The notes under the pieces are model-generated. The model saw nothing but the letters and a program-made list of their open reading frames with translations, was not told the DNA's origin and ran no database searches. DNA of 64,000 nucleotides from Gemmatimonadaceae bacterium (GTDB lineage Bacteria > Gemmatimonadota > Gemmatimonadetes > Gemmatimonadales > Gemmatimonadaceae), in contig JAIBBJ010000006.1 of NCBI GenBank assembly GCA_019694735.1, positions 1 to 64,000 of the forward strand, in the 5' to 3' direction. Positions 29,618 to 54,158 of the stretch are shown here, piece by piece; within the stretch, counting starts at the first letter, position 1, and each line of letters opens with the position of its first letter. A program made the position numbers and the translations under genes.

Positions 29618-30814
29618 CTACTGCACCGCGTTGATCATGTCGAAGATCGGCAGGTACATCGCGACGACCATGCCGCCGACGACGACGCCGAGGAAGACGA
29701 TCATCATCGGCTCGAGGAGCGAGAGCAGGCCCGACACCGCGGCGTCGACCTCCTCGTCGTAGAAGTCGGCGATCTTGGAGAGCATCTCGTCGAGTCCGCC
29801 GGTCTGTTCGCCGACGGCGATCATCGAGATCACCATCGGCGGGAAGACGCCGGACTTGGCGAGAGGAGCGGAGATCGTGTCGCCGCCCGCGATCGACGAG
29901 CGCGAGGCCAGGATCGCGTCCGACACGACGCGGTTGCCGGCGGTCTTCGCCGTGATCTCGAGGCCGTCGAGGATGCTGACGCCGGAGCTGATGAGCGTAC
30001 CGAGCGTGCGGGTGAAGCGCGACACCGCGGACTTGCGGAGCACATCGCCGAGCACGGGGGCCTTGAGCATCAGCGCGTCGACCTTGAGCTGCCCGTTGGC
30101 GGTCGCATAGTAGCTCTTGAAGCCGCGGAAGCCGAAGAACACCGCCGCGATGAGCAGCCACCAGTAGCCCTGCAGGAACTCCGACATGCCGATGACGATG
30201 CGCGTCGGCAGCGGCAGCGCGAGGCCGACCGACGCGAACATGCTCTGGAAGGTCGGGATGACGAAGATGAGGAGGACGATGATGGCCGTGGCGGCGACGC
30301 CCATGATGACGCCGGGATAGATCATCGCGCCCTTCACCTTGCGGACGAGGGCGTCGTTCTTCTCCATGAACGTCGCGAGGCGCATCAGGATGGTGTCCAG
30401 GATACCGCCGGCCTCGCCGGCCGCGACCATGTTCACGTAGAGCTCGGTGAACGCGTTCGGGTGCTTGGCGAGCGCGTCGGCGACCGTGTGGCCGGACTCG
30501 ACGTCGAACACCACCTGCCGGGTCACGTTCTGCAGGACCGGGTTCTCGGACTGCTTGGAGAGGATGTCGAGGGCCTGGACGAGCGGGAGGCCCGAGTTGA
30601 TCATCGTCGAGAACTGCCGGGTGAAGATCACGATGTCGCGCATCGCGATCGAGCCCTTGGTCTTGCTCGGCGTCTTGGACTGCTCCTCCACCTTCACGAC
30701 GTTCATGCGCATCTTCTTCAGCTGCGCGACGGCGTCGTCCTTGGAGGTGGCCTCGATGGTGGCGCTCTTCAGCTCACCTTGGGCGGTCCGTGCGGTATAG
30801 GCGAAAGCGGGCAT
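29618..30814 (-). CDS. pilC: Type IV pilus platform protein PilC
   Basis: This 398-residue protein has two GspF/PilC domains with the usual three membrane helices (near residues 165-190, 215-235 and 370-395). Conserved segments include FTRQFSTMINSGLPLVQAL and AVGEQTGGLDEML, repeated as MVAAGEAGGILD in the first domain. PilC is the inner-membrane rotor turned by PilB and PilT. It starts 21 bases after the pilT stop. The N-terminus is a compact 55-residue cytoplasmic domain, normal for PilC. Confidence 0.95.
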   Translation of the reverse strand: MPAFAYTARTAQGELKSATIEATSKDDAVAQLKKMRMNVVKVEEQSKTPSKTKGSIAMRDIVIFTRQFSTMINSGLPLVQALDILSKQSENPVLQNVTRQVVFDVESGHTVADALAKHPNAFTELYVNMVAAGEAGGILDTILMRLATFMEKNDALVRKVKGAMIYPGVIMGVAATAIIVLLIFVIPTFQSMFASVGLALPLPTRIVIGMSEFLQGYWWLLIAAVFFGFRGFKSYYATANGQLKVDALMLKAPVLGDVLRKSAVSRFTRTLGTLISSGVSILDGLEITAKTAGNRVVSDAILASRSSIAGGDTISAPLAKSGVFPPMVISMIAVGEQTGGLDEMLSKIADFYDEEVDAAVSGLLSLLEPMMIVFLGVVVGGMVVAMYLPIFDMINAVQ

Positions 30815-30835
30815 GCGGGGTCTCCGGGGTCAGGG

Positions 30836-31999
30836 TCAGCGGCGGAGGCCGCCGGCCATCGCACCGCCCTTCGCGGGGGCCGTCGCCGACGGCGCCTCCT
30901 CGATGGCGGTCTTGCCGATCATGCGCAGGAACTCGTTCGGGTCGCTCGAGACGCGGAGGCACTCGTCCTCGTTGACCTCCTTGGCGACGTACAGCTGGTA
31001 GAGCGCGTCGTTGAGCGTCTGCATCCCGTGCTTCTTGCCCGACTGCATCGACGAGTAGATCTGGTGGATCTTGTCGTCGCGGATGAGGGCGCGGATCGCC
31101 GGCGTCACGACGAGGATCTCGGCCGCCATCACGCGGCCCTTGCCCGAGCGCTTGGGCAGGAGCGTCTGGGTGATGATCCCCTCGAGCACGAATGCGAGCT
31201 GGGCGCGGACCTGCGCCTGCTGGTGGCTCGGGAAGACGTCGATGATGCGGTTGATCGCCTCGGCCGCCGAGTTCGTGTGCAGCGTGGCGAACGCGAGGTG
31301 GCCCGTCTCGGCGATGGTGAGGCCGGCGTGGATCGTCTCGTGGTCGCGCATCTCGCCCACCAGCACGACGTCGGGGTCCTCGCGCAGCGCGTACTTGAGG
31401 GCGTTGGCGAACGACTTGGTGTCGCTGCCGACCTCGCGCTGGTTGACGATGCACCCCTGGTGCCGGTGGATGAACTCGATCGGGTCCTCGACCGTGAGGA
31501 TGTGTCCCTTCCGCTCGCGGTTGATCTTGTCGATCATCGCGGCGAGCGTGGTGGACTTGCCCGACCCGGTCGGACCGGTGACGAGGACCAGGCCGCGCGG
31601 CTTCTCGGCGAGGCGCGCGATCACCGGCGGCAGGCTGAGGTCGGCGAACGTCTTGATGTTGAACGGGATCTGCCGCATCACGATCGAGACGCAGCCGCGC
31701 TGCTTGAAGCAGTTGCCGCGGAAGCGCGCCAGGTTCTGGATGCCGAACGAGAAGTCGAGCTCGTCCTCCATCTCGAACCGCTTCTTCTGGTTCTCGGTGA
31801 GCACCGAGTAGGCCAACTGCAGCGTGTCCTTCGGCTGGAGGACGATCTCCTGCCGGGACGACTGGATGTCGCCGTCGATGCGCATCTTCGGGCGCTCGCC
31901 GGCGGTGATGTGCAGGTCGGACGCGCCGCGCTCGATCATCTCCTCGAGGAGCGTGCGGAGGTTGACCTGGGAGACGGCGGGGGTCGAGGGTGCGGTCAT
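30836..31999 (-). CDS. pilT: Type IV pilus retraction ATPase PilT
   Basis: The 387-residue protein has an N-terminal PAS-like domain and a RecA-like ATPase core. Walker A is GPTGSGKS (142-149), with Asp and His boxes (GEMRDHETIH, ATLHTNSA) following. The PilT-specific AIRNLIRE motif appears as AIRALIRDDKIHQI, which is needed for retraction. The C-terminal Ala/Pro/Ser tail (about 30 residues) is longer than usual. It lies between pilB and pilC, which suits coordinated extension and retraction. Confidence 0.95.
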   Translation of the reverse strand: MTAPSTPAVSQVNLRTLLEEMIERGASDLHITAGERPKMRIDGDIQSSRQEIVLQPKDTLQLAYSVLTENQKKRFEMEDELDFSFGIQNLARFRGNCFKQRGCVSIVMRQIPFNIKTFADLSLPPVIARLAEKPRGLVLVTGPTGSGKSTTLAAMIDKINRERKGHILTVEDPIEFIHRHQGCIVNQREVGSDTKSFANALKYALREDPDVVLVGEMRDHETIHAGLTIAETGHLAFATLHTNSAAEAINRIIDVFPSHQQAQVRAQLAFVLEGIITQTLLPKRSGKGRVMAAEILVVTPAIRALIRDDKIHQIYSSMQSGKKHGMQTLNDALYQLYVAKEVNEDECLRVSSDPNEFLRMIGKTAIEEAPSATAPAKGGAMAGGLRR

Positions 32000-32024
32000 G
32001 CTCGGTGGGGGAGGGGGGCGGGCG

Positions 32025-33854
32025 TCAGGCGCCGGTCTCGCGGACGACCTGCTCGAGCGTCGTGATGCCCTTCCAGACCTTGATGAGGCCGTCCATGCGC
32101 AACGTCAGCATGCCGCCCTCGATCGCGGCGTCCTTGATCTCGGCGGCCCCGACGTTCTGGAGGATCAGCTTGCGCAGCGAGGGCGTCATGAACATGACCT
32201 CGTAGGCACCCTGCCGACCCTTCAAGCCGGTGCCGTTGCACGTGTCACAACCCTTGCCCTTGAAGAAGGGCATGTCCATCACGCGCGTGTCCACCGTCAC
32301 CTTCTCGAGGTACGGGGCGGCGTCCTTCGGCGCGCGCGCGACCATGTTCGCCACCGCCTCCTCCGTGAACCGGAGGTCGCGGAGCGTCGTCTCGGTCGTG
32401 ACCTTCGCCGCCTCGAACTCCTCGGCGGTCGGCTTGTACGGGGCCTTGCAGTTGCCGCAGATGCGGCGGAGCAGGCGCTGGGCGAGCACGAGGTTGAGCG
32501 CCGACGACACGTTGAACGGCTCGAGGCCCATGTCCAGCAGGCGCGTCACCGTCTCGGCGGCCGAGTTCGTGTGGAGGGTCGAGAGCACCAGGTGGCCGGT
32601 GAGCGCCGCCTTGATCGCGATGCCGCCGGTCTCGAGGTCGCGGATCTCGCCGACCATGATGATGTTCGGGTCCTGCCGCAGGAACGCCTTCAGCGCCGCG
32701 GCGAAGGTCATCCCGATCTCGTTGCGCACCAGCACCTGGTTGACGCCGTAGAGGTTGTACTCCACGGGGTCCTCGGCGGTCATGATGTTGGTGTCGACCG
32801 AGTTCACCTTGCTGATGCAGGAGTAGAGCGTCGTCGTCTTGCCGGAGCCCGTCGGGCCGGTGACCAGCACCATGCCGTACGGGTTCATCACCGCCTCCAT
32901 CAACTCCTTCTCGGCGCGCGGCTCGATGCCGAACTTCTCGAGGTCGAGCGTCAGGTTCCCCTTGTCGAGGATCCGGAGCACGACCTTCTCGCCGAAGAGC
33001 GTCGGGAGGGTGGAGACGCGGTAGTCGATGACCTTCTTGCCCATCTTGAGCTTGATGCGCCCGTCCTGCGGGACGCGCCGCTCGGCGATGTTGAGCGCCG
33101 ACATGATCTTGAAACGCGAGATCAGGGCGGGCTGCATCTTCTTCGGCGGCCGCATCACCTCCTGGAGCGCGCCGTCGATCCGGTAGCGCACGCGGAGGTC
33201 GTGCTCGAAGCACTCGAAGTGGATGTCGGAGGCGCCACGCTTCACCGCGTCGGTGAGGATCGCGTTGATGAGCTTGACCACCGGGGCGTCGTCCACCGCG
33301 GCGGCGAGCGCCGTGGCCGACATCTCCTCTTCCTTGTCCTCGACGACCTCGAGGTCCTCGCTCTCCAGCCCCTCGATCTCGGAGAGGAGCTGGGACATCT
33401 GCACGTCGCTCGACTCGAAGTTCTTCTCGATGACGTTGCGGAGCGTGAACTCGCCCGCGAGGACCGGGAAGATGTCGTAGCGGGTGATGAACTTGAGGTC
33501 CTCGATCACGCCGAGGTTCGTCGGGTCCGCCATCGCGACCGTGAGCGTGCGCCCGTCGCGCTTGAGGGGCAGCACGAGGTTCTTCGTCGCCAGGTCGGCC
33601 GGCACGAGCTTCACGATCTTCGCGTCGACCTCGAACTTCGACAGGTCGACCGCCGGCATCTTGTACTGCCGCGCCAGGGTGCGGACCAGGTCGTTCTCCT
33701 GGATGAAGCCGAGCTTCACCAGGTTGTAGCCCACCCGCGTCCCGTTCTGCCGCTGCTCGTCGAGCGCCTTCTGGACCTGCTCGCGCGTGACGAGACCCTC
33801 CTTCATCAGGAGGTCCCCGACCCGTTCCGAATTCGAGGAGGCGGCAGTGGCCAT
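32025..33854 (-). CDS. pilB: Type IV pilus extension ATPase PilB
   Basis: With ATG at 33854 the product has 609 residues; a GTG at 33863 would add three. An N-terminal MshEN-like domain (about 8-160) precedes a linker of acidic residues and the GspE ATPase core. Walker A is GPTGSGKT (333-340). The later core carries GEIRDLETGG and STLHTNSA. A four-Cys zinc site is visible (CGNC and CDTC). MshEN domains bind c-di-GMP in related proteins; whether this one does is inference. It starts 98 bases after the ComEA-like gene. Confidence 0.95.
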   Translation of the reverse strand: MATAASSNSERVGDLLMKEGLVTREQVQKALDEQRQNGTRVGYNLVKLGFIQENDLVRTLARQYKMPAVDLSKFEVDAKIVKLVPADLATKNLVLPLKRDGRTLTVAMADPTNLGVIEDLKFITRYDIFPVLAGEFTLRNVIEKNFESSDVQMSQLLSEIEGLESEDLEVVEDKEEEMSATALAAAVDDAPVVKLINAILTDAVKRGASDIHFECFEHDLRVRYRIDGALQEVMRPPKKMQPALISRFKIMSALNIAERRVPQDGRIKLKMGKKVIDYRVSTLPTLFGEKVVLRILDKGNLTLDLEKFGIEPRAEKELMEAVMNPYGMVLVTGPTGSGKTTTLYSCISKVNSVDTNIMTAEDPVEYNLYGVNQVLVRNEIGMTFAAALKAFLRQDPNIIMVGEIRDLETGGIAIKAALTGHLVLSTLHTNSAAETVTRLLDMGLEPFNVSSALNLVLAQRLLRRICGNCKAPYKPTAEEFEAAKVTTETTLRDLRFTEEAVANMVARAPKDAAPYLEKVTVDTRVMDMPFFKGKGCDTCNGTGLKGRQGAYEVMFMTPSLRKLILQNVGAAEIKDAAIEGGMLTLRMDGLIKVWKGITTLEQVVRETGA

Positions 33855-33952
33855 GGACGTCACGGTGGCTCAGGACACGACGGACCCCCGGGCGGCGGCC
33901 GCCGACCCGAGGGAGGGAGTGCGGTGAAGGTGCCCGGCGTACGGACGCAGTG

Positions 33953-35890: not shown

Positions 35891-37438
35891 GTGAAGATCG
35901 TCCCCCGCTACATCCTCCGGGAACACCTCGGGCCGCTGGTCTTCGCGCTCTCGGCGTTGACCTCGCTGCTCCTGCTCAACTTCGTCGCCAAGAAGTTCGG
36001 CGACCTCGTCGGCAAGGGACTCCCGTGGACGGTGATCAGCGAGTTCCTGCTGCTCTCGCTCCCGTTCACGATCGCGATGACGCTCCCGATGGCGGTGCTC
36101 GTCGCGACGCTGCATGCCTTCTCGCGCCTCGCGTCGGAGAACGAGATCACCGCCTTCAAGGCGAGCGGCGTCTCGATGCAGCGGCTCGTCGCGCCCGTCA
36201 TCCTCGCGTCCGCGGCCCTCACGCTCTTCATGGTCTGGTTCAACGACCAGGTGCTGCCGCGCGCGAACCACCGCCTGGCGGAGCTCCAGTCGGACATCGC
36301 GCGCGTGAAGCCCACGCTGGCCCTGCAGGAGCAGGTGATCAACGAGGTGGTCCCGCGCCAGCTGTTCCTGCGCGCCGGGCGCATCGCCGCCGGCACGAAC
36401 AAGATGCGCGATGTGACGATCTACGACCTGAGCGACGCGGCGAGGCGCCGCACCATCGTCGCCGACTCGGGCCTGCTCGCATTCAACGACACCGGTGAGG
36501 ACCTGCTGCTCACGCTGTACGACGGCACGATGGCGGAACTGTCGGTCGCCGAGCCGGAGCAGCTGCAACGCAGCTTCTACCGCACCGACGTGATCCGCGT
36601 CCGCGGCGTCGCGGTGCGGCTCGACCGGGAGCAGGACCGCCGGACCTACCGGTCGGACCGCGAGATGACGGTGTGCGAACTGCAGGCCCGCGTACGGGAC
36701 AACGCGCTCCAGCGCGACTCGGCGTGGGCGCGCTACTTCCGGGCGAAGGGCGATTCCGTGCGCGCCGCCCGGATCCCGGGCGGCGCGACGGGCGTCGGTG
36801 CACTCTACTGCCGCGTCCTCGATGCCGTGCGCGCCGCCGTCACGCCGGCGACGGCCGAGGCGGCGGAGCCACCGCGCCAGGCGGTGCCGAGGCCGCCGAA
36901 GCCCGCCGCGACGTCGCAGCCGGCCCCACCGGCGCCGCAGCCGATCATCGCGCCCTCGGCGGGACTCGGGGCGGCGGCGGACCCGGCCGTCGGCGCCACA
37001 CCCGCCGAGCAGCGCCGCATCAGCGAGGTCGAGCTCAGCGCGCTCGAGATGGAGCTGCGGCTCTCGCAGAATACGATGGACCAGTTCAAGGTCGAGATCG
37101 AGAAGAAGTTCGCGATCGCGACGGCCTGCATCGTCTTCGTGCTGCTCGGCGCGCCGATCGCCCTCCGCTTCCCACGCGGCGGCGTCGGCCTCACGATCGG
37201 CGTCAGCCTTGGCGTCTTCGGGGTCTACTACGTGGGCCTGCTCGGCGGCGAGGCGCTGGCCGACCGGGCGCTGGTGAGCCCGACGGTCGCGATGTGGACG
37301 ACCAACGTCGTCCTCGGGGCGATCGGGGTGATCCTGACGGCGCGCCTCGGCAGCGAGGGGTCGACCTCGCGCGGCAGCGAGACGTCGGAATGGTGGAGCC
37401 GCGTGGTGGAGCGGTTCCGACGCCGGAGGCCGGCGTGA
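35891..37438 (+). CDS. lptF: LPS export permease subunit LptF
   Basis: GTG at 35891 gives 515 residues. The YjgP/YjgQ fold is clear: helices at about 15-35, 52-75 and 100-120 on the N-side, a periplasmic beta domain (about 130-310) and three C-terminal helices (about 405-500). Residues 318-372 form a Pro/Ala-rich insert between the beta domain and the last helices, making the protein about 150 residues longer than the typical 360. LptF and LptG with LptB extract lipopolysaccharide from the inner membrane. The gene is coupled to lptG by GTGA. Confidence 0.88.
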   Translation: MKIVPRYILREHLGPLVFALSALTSLLLLNFVAKKFGDLVGKGLPWTVISEFLLLSLPFTIAMTLPMAVLVATLHAFSRLASENEITAFKASGVSMQRLVAPVILASAALTLFMVWFNDQVLPRANHRLAELQSDIARVKPTLALQEQVINEVVPRQLFLRAGRIAAGTNKMRDVTIYDLSDAARRRTIVADSGLLAFNDTGEDLLLTLYDGTMAELSVAEPEQLQRSFYRTDVIRVRGVAVRLDREQDRRTYRSDREMTVCELQARVRDNALQRDSAWARYFRAKGDSVRAARIPGGATGVGALYCRVLDAVRAAVTPATAEAAEPPRQAVPRPPKPAATSQPAPPAPQPIIAPSAGLGAAADPAVGATPAEQRRISEVELSALEMELRLSQNTMDQFKVEIEKKFAIATACIVFVLLGAPIALRFPRGGVGLTIGVSLGVFGVYYVGLLGGEALADRALVSPTVAMWTTNVVLGAIGVILTARLGSEGSTSRGSETSEWWSRVVERFRRRRPA

Positions 37439-38544
37439 GGCTGCTCCGCCCGCTCGACCGCTATGTGCTCTCGGAGTTCTGGAAGGTCCTCGCCGCGACG
37501 GCGCTGGGCTTCCCGCTGCTCGTGATCATCATCGACGTCAGTGAGAAGCTCGACACCTACCTCGGCCGCAACCTGCCGATCACCGACATCGCGCTGGCGT
37601 ACCTCTACGGCGTGCCGGACACGATGTTCCTCGTGCTCCCGGCGGCGGTGCTCTTCGCGACGGTCTTCACGGTGGGCGCCTTCACGCGCCACTCGGAGAT
37701 CACGGCCGCCAAGGCCTCGGGGATCAGCTTCCACCGCTTCATCGCCCCGATCTCGATCGGCGCCCTCGCCTCGACGCTCTTCGGCCTCGGGCTCGCCGAG
37801 GTCGTGCCGCCGCTGAACGCGCGGCGGCTGGAACTGCTGCAGGAGAAGGTGTTCCGCAACACGGACAAGCGCTCGAACTTCGCGTACCTCTCGGAGTCCG
37901 GCCGGGTCTACAAGATCGGGGCCGCCGACGTGACGACCGGCCGGCTCGAGGCGGTGGAGATCGAGCGGCAGGGCACGGGCCCCGACTACCCGTCCTACGT
38001 GATCTCGGCGCGGACGGGCCAGTGGGTCGGCCCGACCGGGCCCGGCGCGCCGGAGGCCGGCGGGCACTGGCTGCTGGGGAGCGGCGTACTGCACGTGATG
38101 CCCGACTCGCTCTCGAACCTCACGGTGCACTTCGACTCGCTCCGCGACGCGCGCTTCACCGAGCCTCCCGGCAACCTGATGGCCAACCCGAAGGCCCCGG
38201 CGGAGATGGGCTACCGCGACCTCGGGCGGTTCATCGCGGCGATGGAGCGGTCGGGCACCGACGTCAACAAGCTCCGGGTGGAACGGATGCTGAAGCTCGC
38301 CATCCCGGTCACCTGCTTCATCATCATGCTCATCGGGGCGCCGCTGGCGACCTCCACGCAGCGCGGGGGAACGGCCTACGGCATCGGGATCAGCCTCGCC
38401 ACCACGGTTATATTCCTGATGCTGCTGCAGCTCACCCAGGCGATCGGCGCCGGTGGGCTCATCATGCCCGAGCTGGCCGCATGGATCCCCGGGGCGATCT
38501 TCGCGGTGATCGGCTCGGTCCTCCTCTACAAGGTCCGGACCTAG
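37435..38544 (+). CDS. lptG: LPS export permease subunit LptG
   Basis: GTG at 37435, with GGAGG upstream inside lptF, gives 369 residues with the same six-helix plus beta-domain layout and no insert. Conserved signs are LDRYVLSEFWKVLAATALGFPLL, SEITAAKASGIS and a TSTQRGGTAYGIGISL segment near the end. It pairs with LptF; LptB is not in the window. It is followed one base later by mlaE, tying lipopolysaccharide export to Mla transport. Confidence 0.9.
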   Translation: MRLLRPLDRYVLSEFWKVLAATALGFPLLVIIIDVSEKLDTYLGRNLPITDIALAYLYGVPDTMFLVLPAAVLFATVFTVGAFTRHSEITAAKASGISFHRFIAPISIGALASTLFGLGLAEVVPPLNARRLELLQEKVFRNTDKRSNFAYLSESGRVYKIGAADVTTGRLEAVEIERQGTGPDYPSYVISARTGQWVGPTGPGAPEAGGHWLLGSGVLHVMPDSLSNLTVHFDSLRDARFTEPPGNLMANPKAPAEMGYRDLGRFIAAMERSGTDVNKLRVERMLKLAIPVTCFIIMLIGAPLATSTQRGGTAYGIGISLATTVIFLMLLQLTQAIGAGGLIMPELAAWIPGAIFAVIGSVLLYKVRT

Positions 38545-38545
38545 C

Positions 38546-39376
38546 GTGTCGTCGCGTCCCACGGAGAGCTTCCCGGTCGTCCAGCGGCAGGGGCTGCGCT
38601 TCTTCCGGCAGATGGGGCGCGAGACGCTCGGCTTCCTCGGCGGCGTCGGCGGGCGCGTGTTCTTCCTGCGCGACGTCGGGCGTGCGTTCTCGGAGGGGCG
38701 GACCTGGCGCTCCCAGGTGGTGCACCAGATGCGGGCGATCGGCGTGGACTCGCTGCCGCTCGCGCTGATGGTCGCGGCCTTCATCGGGGGCGTGATCGCG
38801 ATCCAGATCCGCTACCAGCTCTTCCCGGGCATCGCGCTGTCGATCGTCGGACTCTCGACGCGGCAGATCGTGATCCTCGAGACGGGCCCGCTGCTGACCG
38901 GTCTCGTGCTCGCGGGGCGCGTGGGCGCGAAGATGACCGCCGAGATCGCGACGATGCGCGTGACCGAGCAGGTGGATGCGCTCGAGACGCTGGCCTTCGA
39001 CCCGGTGGCCTACCTCGTGCTGCCGCGGCTCGTCGCGGCGGTGATCATGCTGCCCATCCTGACCATCTTCGCCGACGTCGTCGGCGTGATCTCGGGGATG
39101 ATGGCGGCGGTGACGGTGGCCGACGTGCAGTACGCCCAGTTCATGGAGGGTGTCCGGCTCGGCTACGACCAGTTCCAGGTGACCTACAGCCTCATCAAGG
39201 CGACGCTCTTCGGGGCGGCGATCGCCTTCCTGTGCACCTACGAAGGCTACACGACCTTCGGTGGCGCCGAGGGCGTGGGCAAGAGCACGGCGAAGGCGGT
39301 CGTGATCTCGTCCATCGCGATCCTCATCCTCGACGCCTTGACCGCGGTGCTCCTCGCCCCCTACCTCCAAGGATGA
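38546..39376 (+). CDS. mlaE: Mla-type phospholipid ABC permease MlaE
   Basis: GTG at 38546 gives 276 residues. The MlaE fold is clear: an amphipathic head, then five membrane helices including AFIGGVIAIQIRYQL, the coupling segment ETGPLLTGLVLAGRVGAKMTAEIATMRVTEQVDALE (seen in parts across residues 112-150) and a periplasmic-side YEGYTTFGGAEGVG turn. MlaE moves phospholipid with MlaD and the ATPase MlaF. MlaF is not next to it. It overlaps mlaD as ATGA. Confidence 0.93.
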   Translation: MSSRPTESFPVVQRQGLRFFRQMGRETLGFLGGVGGRVFFLRDVGRAFSEGRTWRSQVVHQMRAIGVDSLPLALMVAAFIGGVIAIQIRYQLFPGIALSIVGLSTRQIVILETGPLLTGLVLAGRVGAKMTAEIATMRVTEQVDALETLAFDPVAYLVLPRLVAAVIMLPILTIFADVVGVISGMMAAVTVADVQYAQFMEGVRLGYDQFQVTYSLIKATLFGAAIAFLCTYEGYTTFGGAEGVGKSTAKAVVISSIAILILDALTAVLLAPYLQG

Positions 39377-40254
39377 AGCGACGCGACGAAGTGCTCGTGG
39401 GCATCGTGGCGACGGTCGCCATCGCCCTTGCCGTGGTCGGCTCGCTGTTCCTGGCCCGCGGCGGGCTGCTGCCCGGCTACGTGATGTACACCACCTTCGA
39501 CTGGGGCTCCGGCCTCCGCCAGGGCCAGCCGGTGATGCTCTCCGGCGTCACGGTCGGCTACGTGGACGCGGTGGACATCCGGCGCGACGGGAAGCTGCTC
39601 GTCACCATGCGCATCTACACGAAGTACCAGGTGCCGCACGGGACCACGGCGAAGCCGGCGCCCAACGGCGTCTTCGGCGACATGATGGTCGCGATGAAGC
39701 CGGACCGGCCCTCCGATTCCTACTTCGCCGAGGGCGACACCGTGCCGGCCGGCGGCGGCCTGGTCGGCATCGCCGACGTGCTCGCGAAGGTGGATTCGAT
39801 CGGCCACGACGTGCAACAGCTCACCGGGGCCCTGCGGAAGGAACTCGTCGACGATGGCGGCCTGCGGGACCTGCGCCGGACCGTGACGAGCGCGAACGCG
39901 CTGGTCGCGTCGCTCAACACGATCGCCGCCGAGCAGTCCGCCGAGCTGACGCGGACGCAGCGCTCGATCCAGCGGCTCGCCAGCGCCGTGGACTCGGCGC
40001 AGGTCGATTCGACCGTGCGGGCGCTCGGCGACCTGTCGCGCAACGTGAACCAGCTGACGACGGACCTCCGGGGCACGACGAACCAGCTGAACGGCATCCT
40101 GACCAAGCTCGAGCGCGGCGATGGCACCGCGGGCCAGCTGCTCAACGACCCGGGGCTCTATCGCGATATGCGCGGGCTGCTGCAGCGGATCGACTCGCTG
40201 ACCGCCGACTTCCAGAAGCATCCGCGGAAGTACATCAACCTGACCATCTTCTAG
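39373..40254 (+). CDS. mlaD: MCE-domain lipid-binding protein MlaD
   Basis: The 293-residue protein has one membrane helix (about 8-28), an MCE domain (about 38-130: FDWGSGLRQGQPVMLSGVTVG, VFGDMMVAMKP) and a helical C-terminal part (about 150-290) of repeated Leu/Asn/Thr heptads. The helical tail is longer than in E. coli MlaD (183 residues) and resembles Mce proteins with an extended coiled coil. It should bind phospholipids in the periplasm with MlaE. Strong hairpins follow the stop. Confidence 0.87.
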   Translation: MKRRDEVLVGIVATVAIALAVVGSLFLARGGLLPGYVMYTTFDWGSGLRQGQPVMLSGVTVGYVDAVDIRRDGKLLVTMRIYTKYQVPHGTTAKPAPNGVFGDMMVAMKPDRPSDSYFAEGDTVPAGGGLVGIADVLAKVDSIGHDVQQLTGALRKELVDDGGLRDLRRTVTSANALVASLNTIAAEQSAELTRTQRSIQRLASAVDSAQVDSTVRALGDLSRNVNQLTTDLRGTTNQLNGILTKLERGDGTAGQLLNDPGLYRDMRGLLQRIDSLTADFQKHPRKYINLTIF

Positions 40255-40456: not shown

Positions 40457-43400
40457 TCAGTTGAAGATGTAGCGCGCACCGAACTGGATGCGCCACACAT
40501 CGCTCACGCCGGCGTTCCGCTGGAACGAGCGGGAGATGAGGTTCGTCCCGATGTTGCGGAGACGGAACTGCGGGACGATCCCGTTCGCCTGGCCGGCCGG
40601 GATGGCCGGGACGAGCGGCGCGGTGGAGACGAAGCTCCAGCTGCGGCCCCAGTCCGAGTTGAGCATGTTCGTGAAGTTCAGGATGTCGATGCGGAACTGC
40701 ACCGTGTGGCGCTTCCCCGCGATCATCTGCGTGACGTCCTGCGTCGCCGAGAGGTCCATGCGGGTCACCATCGGCATGAACACGGCGCCACGCTCGACGA
40801 CCTCGCCGCGGTGGCTACGCAGGTAACGGTCCTGATCGACGAACTTCTCCCACGCCGCCAGCTGCTGCGCGGCGGTGAAGGTGGTGCCCGACGCGGTGAA
40901 GGTCTGGAACGTGATCTCCCCCTCGCGCGGGATGTAGATCAGGTCGTTCGCGGTGCCGCCGTCGCCGTTGAAGTCGCCGCCGTACACGTAGCTGCCGTTG
41001 CCCTGGGTGCGGCTCTCGAGGAAGGCCGAGACACCGGTGCGCCCGAAGGGCAGGACCTGGCGGGAGTAGGAGGCGACCGCGAACCAGCGGTGACCGAGGG
41101 AGTTGGCCGAGAAGCCGACGCCCGGGTTGTTCGGATCCCAGCTGTGCTGATTGCCGGTCCACGAGCCAGACGCGATCGAGCCGGCGTCCACGGTGTTGCG
41201 CGAGACGCCGTAGCTGTACGCGCCCTTGGCGTAGAACCCGTTCGCGAAGCTCTTCTCGAGCGACGCGGCGATGTTCCACGAGTTGCCGCGGTTCTGGTTC
41301 GCCAGCGTGACGGCGTTGGTGATCTTGCAGTTCAGGCGGTTCTGCACGCCGGCGAGCGAGCCGGTGCCCGGGCAATCGTCCCAGATGTAGCGCGGACGCG
41401 GGTCCGGACCGCCGAAGACGGCATCGGCCGGCGAGAGGTTGGCGTCATAGTAGTAGACGCCGTTGATCTCCTGACCGAGCAGCCACTCGACCGTCCCGAT
41501 CATGCCCCACGGGAGCTTGCGGTCGACGGCGATGTTCGTGCGGAGCAGCTGCGGGAACTTGAAGTCCGGGTCCGTGAAGTTGACCTCGTACGACGAGGCC
41601 GGGGCCCCGGTGACCGTGGTCGGCTTGTAGTGGTTCGGATCCGGGTGGAACGGCCGGTTCGTGACGTTGTCGAGCTGCTCGAAGCCGGTCAGGACGCCGT
41701 TGTTGCCGACCTGGTTGGAGATCCAGACGTACGCCGGACGGCCGGTGAAGACGCCGGAGCCGCCGCGGACCTGCGTCACGCCGTCGCCGCCGACGTCCCA
41801 GTTGAAGCCGAAGCGCGGCGAGACGAGGATGTTCGCGCCCGGGAGCTTCCCGGTCGAGAATTGCCGCGTGCGGCCCCGGTCGTCGATGAAGTTCATCGCG
41901 TCGACCTCGGCGTTGTCGAACGCCGTGTTCGTGAAGCTCGGCGCCTCGACGCGCACGCCGAACGTCATCGTGAGGTTCGACAGCGCACGCCACTCATCCT
42001 GCGCGTAGATGCCGGCGAACATCACCTTGAGCGGCTGGATCGGCTTCACCTGGCCCGGGATGTTGTTCCAGCGGACCTGGAAGCGGCGCAGCGTCACCGG
42101 CGAGACGGTGCGGTTCGGGTTCGCGAGGTAGTCGTTCGCATCCGTGTACCAGTCGGCGAGCGAGTTGTACACGTAGACCGACTGCGACCCCGGGAAGAAC
42201 ACGTTCTCCGACTCATAGCGCTCGATGCTCGCGCCGAACGTCAGGTCGTGCTTCTCGCCGTAGATGTTGAAGTTGTCCTGGAACTGGAAGCTCTTGTAGC
42301 GGAGCTCGTTGTTCGGCGTGAACGGCTCGAAGCCGAACGTGGTGTACACGGTCGAGGCGTTGAGGACGTCCACCATCGGGAAGATCGACCCGCGGGAGTC
42401 GCGGCTCTCGTCGTTCTTGGTGAACCCGACGAGCATGTTGTTCGACATGCGGTCGCCGATCACCGCGTTCCACTCGGCGACGTAGCTGTCGATGATCTCG
42501 AGGATCTGGTAGTTCGAGTTCTGGAAGTTCAGGCCGTTCGCGTTGGTGCGGCGGGTGCCGAAGCCGAGCGACGACGAGTTCGACAGGAGGACGTCGGTCT
42601 TCGAGTCGAGCTTGGAGTACCGGAACGAGAACTTGTTCCGGTCATTGAGCGCGTAGTCGAACTTGGTCGTGAGGCGCATCGAGGGCACCTCGTGGTCGTA
42701 GCCCTGGAACGGGCCCGTCTCGTAGCCGAAGTTCGTGCGGAGGTAGTCGCTCAGCGTCTCGAGGTCGGAGCGCAGCACGCGCGTCACCTGCCCGGTGACG
42801 GTCTCGCCGCCCTCGTTCGCGCGCCAGGTCGTGCCCGGCTCGGTCAGGCCGTCCGACTCGTACGAGACGAAGAAGAAGAGCTTGTTCTTGAGGATCGGGC
42901 CGCTGAGGCGGAACCCGATCTGGCTGTAGTCGAAGGTGCCCGGGTTGAAGGCCCGCCCGCCGACACGCGTACCGACCATGTCCTGGTCGCGCATCAGGGT
43001 GTAGACCGAGCCCGAGAACTCGTTGGTGCCCGACTTGGTGATCGTGTTGACCGCCGCGCCGGTGAAGTTGCCCTGCCGGACGTCGAACGGCGCGATGTTG
43101 ACCTGGATCGCCTCGATCGCGTCGAGCGAGATCGGCGACACGCCGGTACGGTCGCCCGGCTGGCCGGCCAGACCGAACGAGTTGTTGAAGTAGGCGCCGT
43201 CCACCATGATGTTGTTCAGGCGGTTGTCGACGCCCGCGAAGGACGAGCCGCTCGCCTGCGGGGTGAGGCGCGTGAAGTCGTCGATGCGGCGCGAGATCGT
43301 CGGCAGCTGCTCCAGCGCCGCCTGCGGCACGCTGGTCGCCGCGCCGGTGCGCGTCTCGGCGATCTGGCCCCCCGTCGAGGTCACCGTCACCGCGGTCAGC

Positions 43401-43759
43401 TGGGCCGCCAGCTGCCCGAGCCGGAAGTTCACGTCGGTCGAGACGCCGAGCGTGACGCTCAGCCCGTCCCGCGACTGCTTCGCGAACCCGATCCGGGTCG
43501 CCTCGACGGTGTAGGGACCTCCGACACGCATGCCGGGTATGATGAACCGGCCGTCCGCGCGGGTGGACGCCTGATAGACCGTCCCCGAGGGGCGGTGCGT
43601 GGCCGTGACGCGGGCCCCCTCCAGGGGATTGCCCGCCGAGTCGGCCACGGCGCCGCGCATGGAGCCGGTCGTGACCTGGGCCGACGCGTCCGTCGACCAG
43701 AGGGACCCCACGAGGGCCATCGCCCCCAGCAGGGTCAGTGTGCGAAGACTACGGAACAT
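40457..43759 (-). CDS. TonB-dependent Oar-like outer-membrane receptor
   Basis: ATG at 43759 with AGAGGA seven bases upstream gives 1100 residues. A signal peptide (to about 27, DASAQ) is followed by a carboxypeptidase regulatory-like beta domain (about 28-115), a plug domain (about 130-235) and a large barrel ending in aromatic residues (RIQFGARYIFN). No TonB box is obvious after the regulatory domain. Oar-like receptors of this shape transport or secrete large substrates in Myxococcota and related phyla. The substrate is unknown. It stands alone between an APC permease gene and the mlaD terminator. Confidence 0.85.
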   Translation of the reverse strand: MFRSLRTLTLLGAMALVGSLWSTDASAQVTTGSMRGAVADSAGNPLEGARVTATHRPSGTVYQASTRADGRFIIPGMRVGGPYTVEATRIGFAKQSRDGLSVTLGVSTDVNFRLGQLAAQLTAVTVTSTGGQIAETRTGAATSVPQAALEQLPTISRRIDDFTRLTPQASGSSFAGVDNRLNNIMVDGAYFNNSFGLAGQPGDRTGVSPISLDAIEAIQVNIAPFDVRQGNFTGAAVNTITKSGTNEFSGSVYTLMRDQDMVGTRVGGRAFNPGTFDYSQIGFRLSGPILKNKLFFFVSYESDGLTEPGTTWRANEGGETVTGQVTRVLRSDLETLSDYLRTNFGYETGPFQGYDHEVPSMRLTTKFDYALNDRNKFSFRYSKLDSKTDVLLSNSSSLGFGTRRTNANGLNFQNSNYQILEIIDSYVAEWNAVIGDRMSNNMLVGFTKNDESRDSRGSIFPMVDVLNASTVYTTFGFEPFTPNNELRYKSFQFQDNFNIYGEKHDLTFGASIERYESENVFFPGSQSVYVYNSLADWYTDANDYLANPNRTVSPVTLRRFQVRWNNIPGQVKPIQPLKVMFAGIYAQDEWRALSNLTMTFGVRVEAPSFTNTAFDNAEVDAMNFIDDRGRTRQFSTGKLPGANILVSPRFGFNWDVGGDGVTQVRGGSGVFTGRPAYVWISNQVGNNGVLTGFEQLDNVTNRPFHPDPNHYKPTTVTGAPASSYEVNFTDPDFKFPQLLRTNIAVDRKLPWGMIGTVEWLLGQEINGVYYYDANLSPADAVFGGPDPRPRYIWDDCPGTGSLAGVQNRLNCKITNAVTLANQNRGNSWNIAASLEKSFANGFYAKGAYSYGVSRNTVDAGSIASGSWTGNQHSWDPNNPGVGFSANSLGHRWFAVASYSRQVLPFGRTGVSAFLESRTQGNGSYVYGGDFNGDGGTANDLIYIPREGEITFQTFTASGTTFTAAQQLAAWEKFVDQDRYLRSHRGEVVERGAVFMPMVTRMDLSATQDVTQMIAGKRHTVQFRIDILNFTNMLNSDWGRSWSFVSTAPLVPAIPAGQANGIVPQFRLRNIGTNLISRSFQRNAGVSDVWRIQFGARYIFN

Positions 43760-43806
43760 GTGGTGTCCTCTGTTGCCGTGGATTCGACCTGCGGACTGCA
43801 GCCCCA

Positions 43807-43837
43807 AATGTAGTGCGGGACAGGCCGGTTCGTCCAA
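43807..43837 (-). promoter_or_regulatory. Putative promoter of the Oar-like receptor gene
   Basis: On the minus strand TTGGAC (43832-43837) and TACATT (43807-43812) are 19 bases apart, a long spacer. The -10 is 47 bases before the ATG. Confidence 0.3.
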
Positions 43838-43886
43838 GGTGGCCGCCCGGTCCTGACCCCGCCCTGACCCACCCCTGACCGGCCCG

Positions 43887-45263
43887 TTACGCGGCGTCGG
43901 CGGCCGACCCCGAGCCCCCCCTGCCACCTCGCCCCACCGTCCAATAGTAGACCGGGAGCCCGGTCAAGCACGCGCCGAAGACCCCCAGCGTCTGCCACCG
44001 GCTCGACTCCTGCACCAGCGCGTTCCCGAGCAGGTAGAGCACGGCCAGCATGAAGATGGCCGGGACGGCCGGGTACCCCGGGCACCGGAACGACGGCCGG
44101 TAGCTCGGGTCCTTCCGGAGGCGGTAGATCGAGGCCACCGCGAGGAAATAGAAGGGGAGGAACGCCGTGACGAAGGCGTCGGCCAGCTGCTCGAAGCTCC
44201 GGAGGAGCACGAAGGCCGCCCCGATGGTCGCCGTGAGCGTCACGGCCACCCAGGGGGTCCCGAACCGGGGGTGCACGGCCGCCACCGACCGGAAGAAGAG
44301 GCCATCGGCGGCCATCGCGAAGAAGACCCGCGGGCTCGTCAGGAGCACGGTGTTCAGCGTCCCGAACGTCGAGATCATCACCGTCACCGAGACGAACACC
44401 ACCCCGGCCGCCCCGATCACCCGCTGGGCGACGTCCGCGGCGACCAGCTTCGAGACGCGGATCTCCTCGATCGGCAGCACCGCGAGGTAGGCGAGGTTCG
44501 CCAGCAGGTAGATGGCGATCACCAGGAGCGTCCCCCCGATCAGGGCGCGCGGCAGGTTCCGCTGCGGGTCCTGCACCTCGCCGCCATTGTACGAGAGGTC
44601 GGCCCAGCCGTCGAAGGCCCAGAGCGTGCTGACCAACGCGAGGCCGAAGGCCGAGACGGTGAAGCTCCCCGCGGGCAAGGCCGGCGTGTAGAACCCACCC
44701 GTCCGCGGCAGGCCGACCGCGAACGCGACGAGCACGATGAAGAGCAGGCCCCCGTACTTCGCGACGACGGTGAGATTCGTGAAGGCCGCCCCCACCCGCA
44801 CCCCGACCACGTTGAAGAGCCCGGTGAGGAGGATGGCGGCCGCCGCGATGTAGCGGACGGTCATCGCCTCGGCGTCCGAGGCCGCCGCGCCGGTCCGGAC
44901 GCGCCAGAAGTACTCGGCGAACGTGATCGCGATCGCGCCGAGCGAGGCCGCGCGAATCATGATCAGCTGGCTCCACCCGAAGACGAACGCCGGCACGCGC
45001 CCCCAGCCCCGGCGCAGGAAGACGTAGATCCCGCCCGTCTGCGGGAGGGCGCTCGCCACTTCGGCCAGCGTCAGCGCGCCGCAGATCGCGAACAGGCCGC
45101 CCGCGATCCAGGAGGCGAGCATCGGGAAGGGGCCGGGCAGCTTGTCGGCGATGCCGGCCGGCGAGCGGAAGATGCCCGAGCCGATCGTCGAGCCGATCAC
45201 GACGGCGATGGCGCTCCAGAGGCCGAGCCGACGCTCGAGGGTCGGCGAGGGGGTCCCGGTCAT
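43887..45263 (-). CDS. APC-family amino acid permease
   Basis: The 458-residue protein has about 12 membrane helices. The first helix carries VVIGSTIGSGIFRSP, the substrate-binding G-S-G-I-F motif of the amino acid-polyamine-organocation family. Later segments (GALTLAEVASALPQTGGIYVFL) fit the LAT/serine-threonine exchanger branch. No soluble domain is attached. It ends 127 bases before the receptor start and diverges from the small-protein/ctaB pair. The substrate amino acid cannot be read from sequence. Confidence 0.88.
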   Translation of the reverse strand: MTGTPSPTLERRLGLWSAIAVVIGSTIGSGIFRSPAGIADKLPGPFPMLASWIAGGLFAICGALTLAEVASALPQTGGIYVFLRRGWGRVPAFVFGWSQLIMIRAASLGAIAITFAEYFWRVRTGAAASDAEAMTVRYIAAAAILLTGLFNVVGVRVGAAFTNLTVVAKYGGLLFIVLVAFAVGLPRTGGFYTPALPAGSFTVSAFGLALVSTLWAFDGWADLSYNGGEVQDPQRNLPRALIGGTLLVIAIYLLANLAYLAVLPIEEIRVSKLVAADVAQRVIGAAGVVFVSVTVMISTFGTLNTVLLTSPRVFFAMAADGLFFRSVAAVHPRFGTPWVAVTLTATIGAAFVLLRSFEQLADAFVTAFLPFYFLAVASIYRLRKDPSYRPSFRCPGYPAVPAIFMLAVLYLLGNALVQESSRWQTLGVFGACLTGLPVYYWTVGRGGRGGSGSAADAA

Positions 45264-52775: not shown

Positions 52776-53470
52776 GCCACGAGCTCCCGGTACTCGGCGG
52801 CGTAGCGGTCGCGCTCGAGCCCCTCGGCCCGCTCGTATCGCGCGAAGCGGCCGGCGCGCATGACCGCGGCATGGGTGGCGAGCGCCAGCCCCTCGTGCAG
52901 GTGGTGCGTGACGACGATGAGCGCCGCCCCGGCCGCGCGGCGTTCGCGGAGCAGCGCCGTCAGCGCGGCCCCGCCCTGCTCGTCGAGACCGGTGTACGGC
53001 TCGTCGGCGAGGAGCACGTCGGGCCCGTGCACGATCGCGCGGGCGATCGAGACCCGCTGCTGCAGCCCGCGCGAGAGGCTCCGCACGGGAACGTCCGCCC
53101 GGTCGGCGACGCGCAGCTGTTCGAGGGCCCGCTGGACCGCGCCCTCGACGTCCCGGAGCCCGTGCAGCGCCGCGGAGAAGCGCACGTTCTCGCGCGCGGT
53201 CAGCGCCTCGTAGAGCATGCCGCGGTGCGAGATGAGGCCCACGCGCGCCCGCGCCTCCGGTCTCGGGAGGCTGACCCCCTCGATCCGCGCCTGGCCCGCG
53301 CTCGGCGAGAGCAACCCCGCGAGCATCCGCAGCGCCGTCGACTTGCCTGCGCCATTGGGACCGAAGAGCGCGAGGCAGTCGCCCGGGGCGAGGGTGAAGG
53401 AGAGGCCGTCCACCGCCCGGCGCGCCCCGAAGGTCCGGACCAGTCCGGCCGCCTCGACACGCGCCGTCAT
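52772..53470 (-). CDS. ccmA: Heme exporter ATPase CcmA
   Basis: The 232-residue ABC ATPase has Walker A GPNGAGKST, a signature LSRGLQQRVSIARA, Walker B VLLADEPYTGLD and switch His in VVTHHLHEG. Order and overlaps with ccmB and ccmC give the CcmABC identity. A TAGCGT -10-like hexamer lies at 53503-53508. Confidence 0.92.
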   Translation of the reverse strand: MTARVEAAGLVRTFGARRAVDGLSFTLAPGDCLALFGPNGAGKSTALRMLAGLLSPSAGQARIEGVSLPRPEARARVGLISHRGMLYEALTARENVRFSAALHGLRDVEGAVQRALEQLRVADRADVPVRSLSRGLQQRVSIARAIVHGPDVLLADEPYTGLDEQGGAALTALLRERRAAGAALIVVTHHLHEGLALATHAAVMRAGRFARYERAEGLERDRYAAEYRELVA

Positions 53471-53564: not shown

Positions 53565-53888
53565 TCATTCGAGGGTGACGAGCTCGAACAGGCTGTCGAG
53601 GCGCGTGAGCTGCAGCATCTCGCGGACCGCGCGGGCCGGGTTCACGAGGCGCGTGCGCAGGCCACGCTCGCGGGCGCGCTTCTGCAGGAGCACCAGGACG
53701 CCAAGCCCGCTCGCATCGAGCTCGATGGTGCGCGTGAGGTCGATGGAGACGGCCGGCTCCCCCGCCTGCGCGGCGGCCGCCAACGCCTCGAGCGACGCCC
53801 GACGGAAGTCGAGGCGATGGTCCGAGGTGAGACGGAACGGAGCGACGAGCGACGGCACGGGGGCCTCCACGACGGCGATGGACGACAT
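53565..53888 (-). CDS. STAS-domain anti-sigma-factor antagonist-like protein
   Basis: ATG at 53888 with GGGAGGA seven bases upstream gives 107 residues. The STAS pattern SIDLTRTIELDASGLGVLVLL carries Ser60 at the usual phosphorylation position (D-A-S-G). Such proteins release sigma factors by partner switching with RsbW-like kinases. No kinase is adjacent. The promoter may lie in the AT-richer gap upstream. Confidence 0.83.
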   Translation of the reverse strand: MSSIAVVEAPVPSLVAPFRLTSDHRLDFRRASLEALAAAAQAGEPAVSIDLTRTIELDASGLGVLVLLQKRARERGLRTRLVNPARAVREMLQLTRLDSLFELVTLE

Positions 53889-54158
53889 CTGACGTTCCTC
53901 CCACGCAGGGAAGAGCCTTCCGACAGGGGCCAATTCGTCGCCGATCGCGGGGTGGTGCACTCGTGCCTCCCTCGCGTCCACATTCGGCAACCGGACGATC
54001 TCGGCCTGTCCGAGACTCCTGGCTTTGCGACCCCACCTCGCGATGGGAGTGCTCTTTTCGGTGTGGCGTTCTGCGTGTTCGGACCCGATGAAATGCCAAT
54101 TCCGTGCCACCGGTTCCTGAAACACAACTCATTGTATTTCAACAACTTGAGCAGCTAT

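Follow-up and report, generated by a model that had tools for sequence, protein, structure and literature searches.

Why should an operon that encodes two sets of envelope permeases carry the ATPase of neither? The question is raised by a 64,000-nucleotide stretch of a Gemmatimonadaceae genome (positions 1 to 64,000 of contig JAIBBJ010000006.1 in assembly GCA_019694735.1; hereafter the window), in which positions 35891–40254 hold lptF and lptG, for the permeases of lipopolysaccharide (LPS) export, together with mlaE and mlaD of a phospholipid transport system, and neither lptB nor mlaF. We consider it likely that the MlaE1-MlaD1 pair encoded here is run by a solitary MlaF from a distant locus, which would also run a second pair, MlaE2-MlaD2, where that pair is kept, and that LptB runs LptFG.

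The lptFG-mlaED operon and its conservation

The operon consists of four co-directional genes, listed below with the segment of MlaE1 (residues 132–153) that we take, from known MlaE structures, to be its coupling helix.

35891–37438, + strand: lptF, LPS-export permease of about 515 amino acids whose periplasmic part contains a proline-rich stretch (Pfam LptF_LptG, 266.9 bits)
37435–38544, + strand: lptG, LPS-export permease, sharing 4 bases with lptF (Pfam LptF_LptG, 219.4 bits)
38546–39376, + strand: mlaE (MlaE1), phospholipid ATP-binding cassette (ABC) transporter permease, with matches in PDB (Pfam MlaE, 222.1 bits)
38939–39004, + strand: presumed coupling helix of MlaE1, cytoplasmic, the expected contact with the ATPase
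39373–40254, + strand: mlaD (MlaD1), single MCE domain with a long helical tail (Pfam MlaD, 49.6 bits)

An earlier note, made from the letters of this DNA, had described this gene order, the 4-base overlaps at 37435 (lptF/lptG) and 39373 (mlaE/mlaD) and the single base (38545) between lptG and mlaE; all are borne out by the open reading frame (ORF) coordinates and by Pfam, with the four proteins above the curated cut-offs (PF03739, 27.9 bits; PF02405, 22.5 bits; PF02470, 25.1 bits). The match of LptF to PF03739 is split into two stretches by the proline-rich insert, which spans roughly at least 100 residues. The names LptF, LptG, MlaE and MlaD are good at family level only, because the NCBIfam equivalog scores lie below their cut-offs: 179.7 bits against 230 for LptF_YjgP on the lptF product, 159.8 against 240 for LptG on the lptG product, and 195.3, just under 212.2, for TIGR00056 on MlaE1. 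The PDB matches of MlaE1 include MlaE of P. aeruginosa (7ch8) and of E. coli (6xbd), among others, and the LptF/LptG paralogue pair is the sole copy found in its own genome by profile search. The note was also right that neither ATPase is encoded in the operon, since an ABC_tran scan of the contig found no ABC ATPase gene in or beside it, the closest confident matches lying at 17247–17690 and 52994–53410.

The conservation of this arrangement was followed in a family sample of 118 genomes, taken as Gemmatimonadaceae because the closest named relatives by MlaE1 are Gemmatimonas and other members of that family, with counts compiled by hand from the search tables of MlaE, MlaF and lptG matches. 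Proteins were classed by bit score: MlaE1 at 270 or more, MlaE2 at 180–215, MlaF-A at 360 or more plus partial genes in two genomes (G050 and G071), and MlaF-B as the remaining MlaF. MlaE matches were listed down to about 150 bits, and most matches of a third class, MlaE3, fall outside that list; among the 46 MlaE2-class matches, our own and 11 others were confirmed beside MlaD2 in retrieved loci. MlaE1 was present in 101 of the 118 genomes and in 33 of 35 genera, and in every one of the 101 lptG lay directly upstream of mlaE1 on the same strand (gap −18 to 301 bases, median 33), so that the gene order is not a matter of chance. The full lptF-lptG-mlaE-mlaD order without mlaF was seen in 13/13 named relatives and in 20/20 retrieved loci from 20 genera, and none of the 101 mlaE1 genes had MlaF-A or MlaF-B in the 5 kb on either side. 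In a draw of 121 genomes across the phylum, MlaE1 at 270 bits or more was carried by 39 of 43 family genomes and by none of the 78 outside; among the matches listed (one list reaching down to about 164 bits), no MlaE beside lptG was seen by eye outside the family. Within this phylum, the lptFG-mlaED fusion is therefore a trait of the Gemmatimonadaceae: the four-gene order, whose conservation in the phylum the earlier note had left for checking, is fixed in the family and was not found in the 78 genomes beyond it. A tree of 87 MlaE proteins separates MlaE1 from both MlaE2 and MlaE3 and fits two origins, so that MlaE1 may be an old duplicate or may have been acquired; no close relative of it was found in a plasmid collection.

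LptB, the solitary MlaF and the ancestral site

A search of the genome (3.52 Mb, 226 contigs, 96.97% complete) for lptB and mlaF with their neighbours, as the earlier note had proposed, recovered both, LptB on contig C93 and a solitary MlaF on contig C156. LptB scores 348.8 bits against a cut-off of 240, and on its contig the same strand carries CTP synthase, kdsA, homologues of kdsC and kdsD, an LptC-domain protein, an LptA/LptD_N-domain protein, lptB and rpoN; Pfam confirmed the domains of the LptC and LptA proteins, and the other names were read off translations. E. coli has the order kdsD-kdsC-lptC-lptA-lptB-rpoN, with the mla genes adjoining. The lack of LptB in the lptFG operon, remarked on in the earlier note, is thus ordinary, because lptB sits in a separate kds-lptC-lptA-lptB-rpoN cluster just as in E. 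coli.

The lack of MlaF is another matter, and here the earlier note was on firm ground. Profile searches found two MlaE and two MCE proteins in the genome, the second mlaE-mlaD pair (MlaE2-MlaD2) lying on contig C212, likewise without mlaF, and no mlaFEDB operon was found in this genome. The one MlaF-like ATPase is encoded near atpA, with rpoD (a gene of the sigma-70 family) on one side and a nudix gene on the other. Nothing else encoded in the genome matched it at E ≤ 1e-55, and the next-best ABC match reached 107 bits against 509 (only ABC matches with a retrieved locus being compared). The possibility that the operon is a paralogue of an intact mla operon thus fails in this genome and holds in genus g22, where an intact mlaE2-mlaF-mlaD2 block coexists with lptFG-mlaED, which makes the latter a paralogue without an ATPase of its own. 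Two further explanations were also rejected. The mlaF gene was not lost in a gap of the draft genome, as it was found on contig C156. Nor is its separation an artefact of contig breaks: mlaE1, mlaE2 and mlaF share a contig in six genomes (G022, G048, G070, G098, G110 and G023, four of which have one or three contigs), with mlaF hundreds of kilobases away.

Where the solitary gene came from is suggested by its surroundings. Among the best 80 of 503 MlaE matches, which supplied the named-relative loci, 13 were lptFG-mlaED and 67 of the MlaE2 type, the latter comprising 62 mlaE-mlaF-mlaD operons and 5 with mlaE-mlaD only. The common site of the 62 intact operons is rpoD-mlaE-mlaF-mlaD-nudix-HTH-atpA (HTH, helix-turn-helix), with rpoD upstream in 38, nudix downstream in 54 and atpA in 36, many of these loci ending at contig ends. 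The solitary gene occupies the site rpoD-mlaF-nudix-HTH-atpA, with rpoD upstream in 18, nudix downstream in 17 and atpA in 17 of 19 retrieved loci. The whole rpoD-mlaE2-mlaF-mlaD2-nudix-HTH-atpA block is kept in g22 (locus L221) and in one named relative (L148). In the MlaF tree, all MlaF of the family, solitary and operonic alike, belong to a single group (90/92), whose neighbours are operonic MlaF from related lineages. Judged by this shared site and shared clade, the solitary MlaF is the orthologue of the ATPase encoded between mlaE and mlaD, and the ATPase gene apparently stayed at its ancestral site when mlaE2-mlaD2 moved or were lost. The neighbours of the moved mlaE2-mlaD2 pairs vary between genera, only small subsets having common neighbours. 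In the weakly resolved MlaE and MlaF trees g22 falls inside the family, so either the block was lost independently in several lineages or g22 regained it.

Candidate ATPases for MlaE1

Several patterns suggest that one MlaF probably powers both the MlaE1 and the MlaE2 permease. MlaE1 and MlaE2 occur together in 40 of the 118 genomes, 33 of which have MlaF-A and lack MlaF-B (27 of the 33 at 90% completeness or more, from 11 genera), and no genome among the 118 has two MlaF-A. Among the matches listed, MlaE1 is the only MlaE in 18 genomes; MlaF-A is present in 17 of these and is the sole MlaF in 15, in which it is therefore not kept for the sake of MlaE2. Of the 86 genomes that are at least 90% complete, 81 have MlaE1 or MlaE2, and MlaF-A was found in 76 of these, against one of the five that have neither (matches listed). 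Genus g13, with seven genomes and no MlaE1, has MlaF-A in 3/3 genomes with MlaE2 and in 0/4 without any MlaE (matches listed). The coupling helix points the same way: in its 22 columns MlaE1 and MlaE2 are 85.8% identical, compared with 42.7% along the entire protein, and between MlaE1 and MlaE3 the corresponding values are 70.4% and 37.6%; the helix is conserved with few changes in 34/34 aligned MlaE1. A third system that is common among genomes of the family, MlaE3-MlaF-B-MlaD, has its ATPase adjacent in 10/10 loci read; our genome does not have this system, and it was left out when partners of MlaE1 were counted. In the MlaE3 loci from other family genomes (L232–L241), most have an MCE gene beside MlaE3-MlaF-B, and the MlaE3 frame often abuts or overlaps that of MlaF-B.

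Among the alternatives, the one that survives best, though we consider it improbable, is that MlaF-A serves MlaE2 only and MlaE1 uses another, diverged ABC ATPase. The genome offers 49 ABC_tran matches, and a diverged partner could miss the E limit of 1e-55; yet in 15 genomes MlaE1 is the only MlaE (matches listed) and MlaF-A the only MlaF, and the next-best match to MlaF in our genome, at 107 bits among matches with a retrieved locus, is a distant one beside its 509. Considerably weaker is the idea, floated in the earlier note, of one ATPase for both systems, whereby LptB would power LptFG and MlaE1 alike and the operon would be a set of permeases on the LPS-export motor. MlaE1 is co-encoded with LptFG without an adjacent MlaF in any genome examined, and an ATPase common to several permeases exists in principle. 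However, alongside a clear LptB there is a separate MlaF-like gene, found in 89 of the 101 MlaE1 genomes and present or absent together with MlaE1/MlaE2 in the family, and its retention in 17 of the 18 MlaE1-only genomes (matches listed) would be left unexplained. In addition, g13 lost MlaF-A in the 4 of its 7 genomes without MlaE (matches listed) though lptG is kept, and the coupling helix of MlaE1 is of the MlaE2 type, all of which makes a common LptB very improbable. Least credible is that MlaE1-MlaD1 is inactive or ATP-independent and its place beside lptFG without functional meaning: the pair has no ATPase of its own and gene order does not prove function, but the same position is kept in 33/35 genera with tight spacing and open frames, the MlaD motifs are conserved in 31/31 aligned sequences, and so is the coupling helix in all 34 aligned MlaE1.

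Several observations weigh against a solitary MlaF that serves MlaE1. MlaF-A was not found in 12 of the 101 MlaE1 genomes, five of which (G003, G061, G076, G092 and G106) are at least 90% complete; four of the five have MlaF-B and G061 has no MlaF at all, so MlaF-B could serve MlaE1 in those four, or the gene could lie in an assembly gap. Conversely, four genomes have MlaF-A without MlaE1 or MlaE2 among the matches listed, and as lptG was not found in these four either, assembly gaps are suggested. The MlaF search extends to E ≤ 1e-55, so that a weaker MlaF would be missed, and the Fisher tests of MlaF-A/MlaE co-occurrence treat genomes as independent and ignore shared ancestry. The likeness of the MlaE1 and MlaE2 coupling helices may simply reflect conservation in all MlaE. 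The name MlaF is likewise not given by sequence models alone, because the NCBIfam MlaF model scores the solitary ATPase at 167.3 bits, far below its cut-off of 441 and under the 191.8 bits of a ProV-type model; E. coli MlaF reaches 580.9 bits in the same scan. On the supporting side, its best single-domain PDB match is 8fed_G (183.9 bits), followed by 7d06_B (166.1) and 7ch8_I (147.4). The first is labelled an ABC ATP-binding chimera, from an entry that also contains Yrbe1a, and we take it to be MceG, the ATPase of the mycobacterial Mce1 complex.

A proposed shared-motor model, its precedents and its meaning

In the model that we favour, in which the solitary MlaF drives MlaE1-MlaD1, this pair would be co-transcribed with LptF-LptG, a single promoter upstream of lptF fixing the ratio of the permeases, as their spacing suggests. 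LptFG would be powered by LptB from the separate kds-lptC-lptA-lptB-rpoN cluster and extract LPS, and MlaE1-MlaD1 would be powered by MlaF from the rpoD-mlaF-nudix locus, a putative remnant of the phylum's ancestral mlaE-mlaF-mlaD operon after the departure of mlaE and mlaD. Where MlaE2-MlaD2 is kept, the same MlaF would form complexes with MlaE1 and with MlaE2 and drive ATP-dependent transport through both permeases, in the way that mycobacterial MceG serves Mce1 and Mce4. MlaE1-MlaD1-MlaF would then move lipid, presumably phospholipid, between the membranes, and co-transcription would balance the supply of LPS and phospholipid.

Genes for MlaC and MlaA (PF05494 and PF04333) were found in 0/11 genomes of the genus, with E. 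coli and Caulobacter as positive controls; because both are absent, the lipid presumably passes through an elongated MlaD rather than by a shuttle. The structural model of MlaD1 has an N-terminal membrane helix at residues 2–28, the MCE domain at 35–110 and helices at 133–287 (about 150 residues of helix), and shows no C-terminal barrel, the only point for which the model was used, its confidence being middling (mean predicted local distance difference test, pLDDT, 69.2; predicted template modelling score, pTM, 0.39). Elsewhere in the window, the minus-strand region 53565–54063 holds a STAS_2-domain ORF (PF13466, 45.6 bits) whose start is probably near 53889; a c-di-GMP-I riboswitch (RF01051, 58 bits) at 53983–54063 lies just upstream of the ORF, and ccmA-like and ccmB genes come after it. 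E. coli MlaB belongs to the same Pfam family, PF13466, and any link of this ORF to MlaF would be hypothetical. The window also has minus-strand frames named from their translations only: at 29618–33863, frames like those of type IV pili or type II secretion, with two secretion-type ATPases and an inner-membrane platform protein, and at 40457–43927, convergent with the operon, a TonB-receptor-like frame of about 1150 amino acids with a carboxypeptidase-like N-terminus.

The closest precedent for sharing is MceG, described in one study as the ATPase common to Mce1 and Mce4 of mycobacteria (PMC9947336). There, as here, MCE permeases are encoded in ATPase-less operons with one ATPase between them, and among single-domain PDB chains it is 8fed_G, of the Mce1 complex, that the solitary ATPase matches best; here, in contrast, the host is a diderm with LPS export, each system pairs one MlaE with one MCE protein of a single domain, one of the permease pairs forms part of the lptFG operon, and sharing is a prediction from sequence. 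The second relative is the minimal MlaEFD system of Veillonella parvula (PMC10665443), which like ours has MlaE, MlaF and a long MlaD and lacks MlaA and MlaC; the mlaE-mlaF-mlaD order is found in most of our phylum. It differs in that here mlaF lies outside the operon and the MlaD1 model lacks a C-terminal barrel. In E. coli, mlaFEDCB lies next to yrbG-kdsD-kdsC-lptC-lptA-lptB-rpoN, so that Mla and Lpt genes are neighbours there too and lptB likewise accompanies kdsC-lptC-lptA and rpoN; however, those mla genes are divergent from the lptCAB half and keep mlaF, whereas in our operon mlaED reads in the same direction as lptFG, with no mlaF. The sugar-importer nucleotide-binding domains MsmX and MsmK are also solitary ATPases, reported to serve several permeases, but of Type I importers whose permease fold is unrelated.

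In the literature searched (titles and abstract openings), neither lptFG-mlaED nor a solitary MlaF was found to be described for Gemmatimonadota. A published survey (PMC10665443) accepted MlaF only where synteny placed it no more than five genes from further mla genes, and relied on MlaDE clusters because the annotation of MlaF was uncertain. A solitary MlaF would hence escape it by design, and genomes such as ours would score as MlaF-less.

The system is thus a confirmed, lineage-fixed variant of the minimal Mla system, whose motor is displaced and probably shared. It would preserve the history of how a shared ATPase arises, the motor gene holding its place and the permease genes departing. 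How diderms keep the delivery of LPS to the outer membrane in balance with that of phospholipid is an open question, and throughout this family the LPS-export permeases and a phospholipid permease form one putative transcription unit, with the phospholipid motor encoded separately and probably shared. We would regard it as rather unlikely that the solitary MlaF is limiting and that two pairs compete for it as their motor, MlaE1-MlaD1, whose production goes along with that of LptFG, and MlaE2-MlaD2, made separately; if that were true, motor competition and operon dosage would tie phospholipid traffic to LPS export and so balance both leaflets of the outer membrane.

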